Assembly: GCF_023705585.1 (NCBI RefSeq) | Contig: NZ_BOQE01000001.1 | Span: forward strand, 3,690,710-3,754,709 | Reading direction: 5' to 3' | Source: Collibacillus ludicampi | GTDB lineage: Bacteria; Bacillota; Bacilli; Tumebacillales; BOQE01 | Length of the DNA stretch: 64,000 bases | Shown here: positions 17,155-48,681 of the stretch, piece after piece | Layout: each line of letters begins with the position of its first letter | How positions within the stretch are numbered: position 1 is the first letter of the stretch | Made by a program: the position numbers and the translations under genes | Notes under the pieces: model-generated | The model's input: only the letters and a program-made list of their open reading frames with translations | What the model was told of the DNA's origin: nothing | Database searches by the model: none

Positions 17155-17844
17155 TCACATCACTCGCTTCGCCCCAATATAACGAGGTCCCCAGTATTGG
17201 TTGCTAAAACTATCGATTTTCACACCGCTGGAACTCGTTGCAGAGATAAATTGGTTATCACCTATGTAAATCCCTACGTGTGAAGGACCCGGTTCATATG
17301 TAGAGAAGAATACCAGATCGCCAGGCTTTAAATCGGAAACCGTTGTTCCCGTGTTATACATCTCTTGGGAAGTACGCGGCAAATCGACACCTCGTTGTGC
17401 ATATACATATTTTACGAAACCGGAACAGTCAAATCCGGATGGGCTCATACCCGCATATTGATAGGGGGTACCCAGGTATTTTTTAGCGATTTCAACAACA
17501 TTCGCTTTCTGGATAGAATTTGTATCCAGGCCTCTTGCTTTCAGTTCCTTTTCGATATATGTCCCGGTTGTTTTCCCGACCATCCCGTTGACTTGAATAC
17601 CATGATCCCTTTGAAACGCTTTGACCGCCTCTTCTGTAACTTCGCCATAGTATCCTGTATTTGTTGGATATGTAAAATAGTTTAACAAGCGTAAGTCTTG
17701 TTGTAATTCGATGACCTTCTCTCCCTGGGAACCTTTCTTCAGCAGGACGTTCCAGTCAGTTTCCGCAGCCATGGCTGTCGATGCGGTGAGAAAAGATACT
17801 CCAATCGTACCTGCGAATAGTAGAGCTCTGACACCTTTCTTCAC
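17155..17844 (-). CDS. NlpC/P60 cell-wall endopeptidase with peptidoglycan-binding domain
   Basis: About 229 residues from GTG at 17844, where AGGAGG is 7 nt upstream. The ATG at 17850 is too close to that site. The signal peptide is KKGVRALLFAGTIGVSFLTA, ending AMAAE. Residues 35-100 form a PG_binding_1 domain (GSQGEKVIELQQDLRLLNY). The rest is NlpC/P60 with catalytic Cys in FDCSGFVKYVY, His in GPSHVGIYIG and a third polar position near the end. It should cut D-Glu-mDAP bonds outside the cell. Expression is under a c-di-AMP riboswitch. Confidence 0.92.
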   Translation of the reverse strand: MKKGVRALLFAGTIGVSFLTASTAMAAETDWNVLLKKGSQGEKVIELQQDLRLLNYFTYPTNTGYYGEVTEEAVKAFQRDHGIQVNGMVGKTTGTYIEKELKARGLDTNSIQKANVVEIAKKYLGTPYQYAGMSPSGFDCSGFVKYVYAQRGVDLPRTSQEMYNTGTTVSDLKPGDLVFFSTYEPGPSHVGIYIGDNQFISATSSSGVKIDSFSNQYWGPRYIGAKRVM

Positions 17845-17858
17845 TTCCATTCCTCCTG

Positions 17859-17964
17859 TGCCTCCGAGGTTAGTTGTCGGGTTCGGGTAGAGGTCCCCTA
17901 CGCATGCAAGCGATTCACCCCAATAAATCGTCCCCCGTACTGACCGTCTGTCAGATTCGGCAAA
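17859..17964 (-). promoter_or_regulatory. c-di-AMP riboswitch (ydaO/yuaA type)
   Basis: On the minus strand the leader carries the class's conserved strings in order: TTTGCCGAATC, GTACGGGGGA, TTGGGGTGAATCG, GTAGGGGACC, CCCGAACCCGACAACTAACC and TCGGAGGC. GCC and GGC close the P1 helix. The aptamer ends only 2-3 nt before the AGGAGG of the NlpC/P60 gene, so control is likely at ribosome binding. These riboswitches usually turn wall-hydrolase genes off at high c-di-AMP; that is known of the class. Confidence 0.93.
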
Positions 17965-18062
17965 TTTTCTATCTGGTTTGAAATCACATTTCTCTGCTCT
18001 ACTAAAATTCGCGAAAAAATGCCAAATTCCTTCTTTTCTCGCCACTTTTTTTCAAATGAAAC

Positions 18063-25384: not shown

Positions 25385-25735
25385 CTATCTTGAAAATGTG
25401 TAGTTTGGCGGGCGTATGCTTTGCGTTCGAGTTCCGTGTAGGTCGTTTCAACGGGTATATGCATTGCGCTTATGCTCCGTGAAGGTCGTCTCGCATGGAA
25501 TCATAATCATATGTTGCGAGACGACCTTCAAAGTCGCTATTACGCGCAATGCATATACCCTTTTACATCCGAAAGGAAGCGAGACGACCTCCAAAGTCGC
25601 TGTCTCACGCAAAGCATTACGCCAACCTAAAGGCACTTTTCATCCTCTGATGGCGCCGCTTGCGGCATGGAGAGCTATCTTGAAAACTAGTGCTTGGGTG
25701 GGTGTATCGCTTTGCGCTTGGGTTCGATGAAGCTT
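25385..25735 (+). repeat. Nested palindromic repeat, copy D (full nested module 1, truncated module 2)
   Basis: Module 1 spans 25410-25623 and encloses the inner hairpin 25453-25560 (GGGTATATGCATTGCGC pairs with GCGCAATGCATATACCC). The inner arms differ from copy C by a matched T/A to A/T change. Module 2 is a left-arm remnant (25695-25732) that breaks at the same place as in copy C. The stretch 25096-25384 before it holds only the hairpin at 25131 and AT-rich DNA. Confidence 0.93.
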
Positions 25736-25965: not shown

Positions 25966-26397
25966 TCAAAGTGTTTGTTCATACTCCTTTAGGACCTGCA
26001 AGAATTGGCGACGTGGTGACAATACCGGCCTTATTTGTTTCACAGTGCGTAAAGCTTTCTCGCATGAAAGATGATACATTCGCATAAAAAGTGCCGTGAG
26101 GAAAAAGCCCAAACGATTTTTTCCCGCCACATCATGAACATAGATAATATATCCATCGTTCAGCCATCGGATCGTTTCCTCAACCGCTTGTCGTAAACGG
26201 TTTACTGACGGCTTTTCTTTATTTCCGAGCGGGAAACGAAGCACTCGCAACGGAGAGATCCAGTCAGGGGGAACGTCTTCTTTCTTGCTCAGATTGACAA
26301 TTCCATTCACATGAAGCTGCGCGAGGGTCATCCACCCTTTTTCGTCCACACGCTCTCCCGCATATAAGATTCCGGGAATGATTTCGCTAATGTCCAT
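25966..26397 (-). CDS. Dual-specificity-phosphatase-fold protein lacking the catalytic cysteine
   Basis: 143 residues. The fold is recognisable: IIPGILYAG start, PPDWISPLRVLRFPLG in the acid-loop region, and YVHDVAGKNRLG at the P-loop. Active enzymes have HCx5R; here the residue after His is Asp (codon GAT), giving HDx5R. The Arg is kept. Catalysis by the usual cysteinyl-phosphate route is therefore not expected, and the protein is likely a pseudophosphatase or a phosphate-binding module. Confidence 0.8.
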   Translation of the reverse strand: MDISEIIPGILYAGERVDEKGWMTLAQLHVNGIVNLSKKEDVPPDWISPLRVLRFPLGNKEKPSVNRLRQAVEETIRWLNDGYIIYVHDVAGKNRLGFFLTALFMRMYHLSCEKALRTVKQIRPVLSPRRQFLQVLKEYEQTL

Positions 26398-26555
26398 AGA
26401 CTCTTCCCCTCACCATTCAATATCGCACAATACTATATGGTGTATGTAAAAAGTGCATGTCTTGTTCCTTTTCAAAAGAAAGACTCCCCGCATAATCTTG
26501 TCCTCCAAATACCAAGCTAACGTAAGAAGATCTTGATAGAAAGGAATGTGAGGGC

Positions 26556-48528: not shown

Positions 48529-48681
48529 CTGACATTCTCGTACGTTGTCCTCTGTCTCGGTCCACTTACGGCTCAGAGCAGAAATATGGATGTTGTTCAT
48601 ATCACGTATTGCATGAGTACAGTTCATTTCGATACCGCCTCAACCGCAAGTATACACGAGCATACATCTACTGTACAGTAT

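Follow-up and report, generated by a model that had tools for sequence, protein, structure and literature searches.

A conserved bacterial subfamily of predicted DSP-fold pseudophosphatases with a carboxylate P-loop, linked in some genomes to CotS-like kinase relatives

In this study, we analysed a gene for a protein of DSP fold on the minus strand of a 64,000-nt stretch of Collibacillus ludicampi DNA, hereafter called the window. The features at the locus are the following.

25966..26397, minus strand: pseudophosphatase gene, 143 aa, DSP fold (from the ORF, Pfam and the predicted structure)
26107..26136, minus strand: P-loop H88-D-V-A-G-K-N-R-L-G97, with HDX5R-L in place of HCX5R-S/T
26131..26133, minus strand: GAT codon of Asp89, at the catalytic Cys position
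26431..26460, minus strand: sigma-K-like match ACATGCACTTTTTACATACACCATATAGTA, 33 nt before the ATG of the gene (consensus as we take it to be, see below)

The open frame starts with ATG, runs from 26397 to 25966 with the stop codon included, and has a purine-rich stretch immediately 5' of it that, by eye, resembles a ribosome-binding site. Residues 88-97 of its product are HDVAGKNRLG. The original prediction had read an Asp in place of the catalytic Cys, encoded by a GAT codon two base changes away from TGT or TGC, and both readings hold in this frame, with the codon at 26133-26131. The HCX5R(S/T) signature is absent from the protein (HDVAGKNR-L); Leu96 stands where active enzymes have Ser/Thr next to the P-loop Arg, and the Arg that was expected to be kept is present as Arg95. 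Short repeated motifs were noticed by eye at 25400-25640 around GACGACCT..AAAGTCGCT. Elsewhere in the window, a c-di-AMP riboswitch and a pan motif were found on the minus strand, at 17843-17972 and 48548-48641.

That the phosphatase fold is retained, as had been proposed, was borne out by profile and structure. The Pfam DSPc profile recognises the protein with 42.9 bits (E 5e-11), above its cut-off of 33.5. The AlphaFold2 model, for which the alignment comprised two sequences, is weak: its mean pLDDT is 60.5, and values under 50 are found for residues 1-45 and for 90-92 in the P-loop. The model of the Tumebacillus flagellatus orthologue is likewise of low confidence (pLDDT 65.8). The window model superposes on solved DSPs over about 120 residues, best on SDP-1 (2j16, Z 12.7) and then on Tk-PTP (5z59, Z 12.5), and the top Foldseek match is DUSP8 (4jmk, E 3e-6 over 78 columns).

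Close relatives are encoded in four other genomes of the order (G001, G009, G011 and G012; 46-53% identity), and the G009 protein is identical to that of T. flagellatus (L037). The P-loops of these orthologues (HDIAGRNRLG, HDVAGRNRLG, HDVAGKNRLG and HDEEGRNRLG) all carry Asp and end in RLG. A profile search matched 6 of the 14 genomes of the order, namely the window genome, these four and, weakly, G010. Wider searches on overlapping genome sets matched 44 of 398 genomes of the class, 4 of 42 in a second order, 3 of 15 in a third, 6 of 398 phylum-wide, none of 261 in a fourth order at 1e-15 and 49 of 397 in a fifth at 1e-8; the majority of the matches read were ordinary DSPs. The resulting census, which covers part of the sequenced Bacilli and in its first pass scored some of the candidates per genome, gives a family of 18 sequences, 16 genomic and 2 plasmid-borne. 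Against the family profile, which was built from the family itself, the 16 genomic members score 182-227 bits and the next frame 64.

Across these 18 members, the catalytic position is Asp in 13, Glu in one and Cys in four, and H88, G92 and R95 are invariant. The acidic residue is encoded by GAT, GAC or GAG; because it occurs in 14 of the 18 members and through these three codons, the swap is not a chance event. Leu follows the P-loop Arg in every acidic member, while the Cys members have Leu twice and Ser twice, and 20 of the 143 columns, that of Asp89 among them, are identical in at least 13 of the 14 acidic rows. Active-type DSPs of Bacilli (HCAGGRNRTG, HCSGGKNRTG) share the fold and about the length of the window protein, but reach at most 64 bits against the family profile. 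Outside the family, Cys was found in 36 of the 37 DSP frames read (35 by pattern and L049 by reading), a rough base rate, since a subset of the matched loci was read and near relatives are frequent among the 37. The remaining frame, L006, is the same locus as L012 and has TGA at the Cys codon.

This locus (L012, G010:C153, minus strand, frame from 862) is a DSP of the window's own order in which the TGA takes exactly the place of the codon for the catalytic Cys, and the frame continues open to either side of it. The TGA could reflect a nonsense mutation, or else the locus could encode a selenocysteine phosphatase. A scan of 638 kb of this genome of about 2.7 Mb found no selA, selB or tRNA-Sec, and one selD-like match at only 27% identity. 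The hairpin is unremarkable (z -1.16, ranking fifth among 24 homologous stretches).

The window gene could in principle be decaying, or its odd residue could be a sequencing error; in its favour this reading has that residue alone, and we regard it as very improbable. The original prediction had named Cys in all orthologues as the sign of a recent loss in one strain; the search of the order gave four close orthologues, all with Asp, so the swap is no one-strain loss, and, counting that of the window, five genomes of the order share the residue in intact frames. Among relatives, dN was below dS in all four of the seven pairs that could be estimated (0.08/0.43, 0.34/1.54, 0.08/0.21 and 0.20/1.60), and dS was saturated in both pairs containing the window gene and in L017-L018. 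The gene thus looks intact, as first supposed; both the orthologues and the selection seen among relatives rule out recent loss, pseudogene or read error. Since a DSP fold without its catalytic Cys is intact, under selection and the same in the orthologues, the naming of the product as a pseudophosphatase stands at the level of sequence. The window protein is very probably inactive by the Cys mechanism, and these features indicate that it belongs to a conserved bacterial subfamily with a carboxylate P-loop.

In a tree built without the P-loop columns and without a distant outgroup, the five sequences from the order fall into one clade (100/99) within a nine-row group (96/97), to which L013, L016, L015 and L104 also belong and in which all nine rows carry Asp or Glu. 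The other nine rows are an intermixture of five Asp and four Cys members. The Cys members group with Asp members, and a single Cys clade was not rejected (p-AU 0.498), so that a single switch between Cys and acid is possible; the switch may have occurred once or more than once, or may have reverted. Loss of Cys would be the simple reading of its direction, because the frames outside the family carry Cys. Two Cys members (L014:1501-1959 and L102:6399-6836) have Leu after the Arg and lack an Asp near the general-acid position; they are possible intermediates.

In STYX, Gly stands in place of the catalytic Cys. Like the window protein, STYX and the animal DUSP pseudophosphatases have a DSP fold in which the catalytic Cys is replaced and the Arg kept, and the STYX structure 2r0b matches the window protein both by sequence (E 0.003) and by fold, without being its nearest match. 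Unlike STYX, the bacterial family has Asp or Glu at this position and Leu after the Arg, and some members are joined to relatives of spore kinases. The D2 domains of PTPRG and PTPRZ carry the same Cys-to-Asp change at the same position. Receptor phosphatase D2 domains are described, in the accessible parts of the sources, as inactive or nearly so; in contrast to the window protein, those of PTPRG and PTPRZ are classical PTP domains of animal receptors, each in tandem with a D1 that is active.

Binding of a phosphorylated ligand in the manner of a STYX-like trap was the function first proposed. The P-loop Gly and Arg are kept, and such a mode is known for animal pseudophosphatases, as far as the accessible text of a review goes (PMC10211241). 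However, an acidic residue lies at the base of the pocket, and no member of the 18 has the small neutral residue expected of a trap. At this site of the P-loop, a carboxylate would presumably repel phosphate and might itself fill the pocket, so this reading is less likely than it first appeared and is no longer favoured; we consider it unlikely. It is also conceivable that the chemistry has changed rather than disappeared, with the P-loop carboxylate as a nucleophile (through an acyl-phosphate) or as a metal ligand and with His88, Arg95 and Asp/Asn59 kept. Consistent with this, the position is acidic in all 14 Cys-less members and never Ser, Gly or Ala, and His88, Gly92 and Arg95 do not vary. 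The general acid Asp lies about 30 residues before the Cys, and we take its place to be position 59. Near this assumed site, seven of the nine rows of the window's clade have Asp, which is odd for a wholly dead enzyme; against changed chemistry, the window protein and L004 have Asn there, five other acidic members also lack the Asp, and the Ser/Thr after the Arg is gone in all 14 acidic members. To our knowledge, carboxylate-nucleophile or acyl-phosphate chemistry has no precedent in the DSP fold. Altogether, changed chemistry seems improbable, and its more specific form, in which Asp89 is the replacement nucleophile of an acyl-phosphate mechanism linked in some spore-formers to a CotS-like kinase without catalytic Asp, seems slightly more so.

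A link to kinases came from gene neighbourhoods. The window gene has no conserved neighbours, and no recognised spore gene was found beside it or beside any of the four orthologues closest to it. In four other genomes of the window's nine-row clade (G345, G1177, G212 and G203), which span three families of two other orders, the pseudophosphatase gene lies in a cluster with APS-kinase-like and CotS-like genes, coming after an APS-kinase-like gene and being adjacent or fused to the CotS-like one. The features of this cluster are:

L013:1501-2985 and L016:1501-2991: natural fusion of pseudophosphatase and CotS-like kinase without catalytic Asp
L040:9454-10594, L104:7191-7712 and L013:958-1476: APS-kinase-like P-loop proteins tied to the pseudophosphatase

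In G212 and G203, an APS-kinase-like gene directly precedes one ORF of 494 or 496 aa, in which the pseudophosphatase is the N-terminal and a CotS-like kinase the C-terminal domain. In G345, a pseudophosphatase of the Glu type is accompanied by two APS-kinase-like genes and by a CotS-like kinase of 354 aa in an ORF of its own. The G1177 pseudophosphatase is 37% identical to that of the window, and its kinase is truncated to an ORF of 74 codons, the first 46 of which correspond to the beginning of such a kinase (41%). The APS-kinase-like proteins of G1177 and G203 are 59% and 60% identical to that of G345; the G212 protein matches Pfam APS_kinase with E 7e-26, and none of the three such proteins scanned reached the NCBIfam cut-offs for APS kinase.

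The cluster kinases score above the Pfam APH cut-off and match YtaA/CotI (2q83). Their nearest family is that of the spore kinases CotS, YtaA/CotI, YutH and YsxE, although with 147.7 and 133.9 bits (E 4e-43 and 6e-39) against CotS TIGR02906 they score under its cut-off of 172.7. The kinase catalytic Asp (CHQD in YtaA/CotI 2q83; D239 of YtaA) is gone in all three intact partners, where the site reads CHGG in G345 (Gly, L040) and CHNA in G212 and G203 (Ala, L013 and L016). As L013 and L016 are near relatives, these count as two losses, not three. Among the other CotS-like frames of the kinase alignment, the Asp is kept in 12 of 17 and absent in 5, so its loss is not special to the partner kinases. 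According to the accessible text of PMC2860764, the known members of the spore kinase family are mostly spore-coat proteins, and five of them were predicted to be pseudokinases for the same loss of Asp; the words phosphatase and fusion are both absent from its main text. CotS-like kinase matches were found in all 21 genomes tested, five of them in the window genome.

A further hint of a spore role lies upstream of the window gene. As the sigma-K consensus we used what we take to be AC-N17-20-CATANNNTA. The site before the window gene was spotted by eye before any sigma-K-like matches were counted. Both strands of the window contain six such matches at five places; apart from this one, none lies within 400 nt ahead of an ORF of at least 90 aa on its own strand, the next nearest being at 407 nt. 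In a CotS-like gene cluster elsewhere in the window genome (L079), two matches occur in 18 kb, one of them oddly close (7 nt) to the first ORF. The G345 operon (L040) also has a match at its head; the probability of a chance match is not small there, because its 18 kb stretch holds five. When 200 nt before each of the 18 family operon heads were scanned, a match within 100 nt was found in two (the window gene and G345) and one at 195 nt at the L018 head, and the remaining 15 had none, among them all five heads examined last. Sigma-K control as a family-wide trait found no support, with 16 of the 18 heads lacking a match within 100 nt, and the match before the window gene is a hint only.

The same 16 heads are consistent with a conserved pseudophosphatase that has no link to spores: a stand-alone module with a lineage-specific partner, the kinase cluster being a side branch. 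No neighbours are common to the window, the Tumebacillus-type genomes, the Priestia plasmid and the fluoride-channel neighbourhood, which also speaks for this reading. On the other hand, the cluster sits in the window's own, well-defined nine-row clade, in three families of two other orders, and the window gene itself is preceded by the sigma-K-like match. We hold this reading to be possible, if rather doubtful.

A single family-wide operon was not found: two Tumebacillus-type members lie directly after an aldehyde dehydrogenase gene. A fluoride riboswitch and a CrcB pair adjoin the pseudophosphatase gene in three genomes (L100:6511-6572, L101:7108-7169 and L103:6114-6174); the CrcB pair has its own fluoride riboswitch, and the three family members lie before such a pair. 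Spread on plasmids was rejected, with matches in 2 of 72,556 plasmid records (protein search). A role in anti-phage defence was ruled out by absent PADLOC matches (five proteins, E 0.01) and absent phage relatives (50,697 phage records, E 0.001), and three scans of viral contigs with short peptide patterns gave no relative.

The explanation that we favour, and to which we give about an even chance, is that the protein is a non-catalytic binding module working with spore kinases or pseudokinases, a role suggested by the tie of the module to CotS-like relatives without catalytic Asp in the window's clade. On this view, the catalytic Cys would have been exchanged for a carboxylate (that of Asp or, once, of Glu), and Leu would have taken the place of the Ser/Thr after the Arg. 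Placed where phosphate was once bound, facing the conserved Arg95 and the loop amides, the carboxylate probably locks the P-loop shut, and the closed fold could then act as a rigid protein-binding module instead of an enzyme. By fusion or adjacency in the four cluster genomes, this module is linked to the spore-kinase relatives, and we propose that it helps to recruit, hold or regulate CotS-like kinases or pseudokinases and their clients in the mother cell or the spore coat. In the window genome the gene stands alone, and its product would pair with a CotS-like kinase from another locus of that genome. The CotH-CotG-CotB module of the B. subtilis outer coat is a likewise kinase-based case of coat patterning, except that CotH is an active kinase.

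Pseudophosphatases as such are already known, and reviews, in their accessible parts, treat animal and mostly human cases (PMC10211241, PMC9464862). A bacterial DSP pseudophosphatase was not found in the titles and abstract openings of the open-access literature, among the matches listed. A bacterial family with a kept acidic swap, some members of which are fused to a spore-kinase relative lacking its key residue, offers a small and tractable case. It bears on the question of a non-enzymatic role of spore kinases, raised in the accessible text of PMC2860764. Potentially, two opposite enzymes have both been turned into binding parts, and a dead phosphatase and a dead kinase-like protein may function as a working pair.
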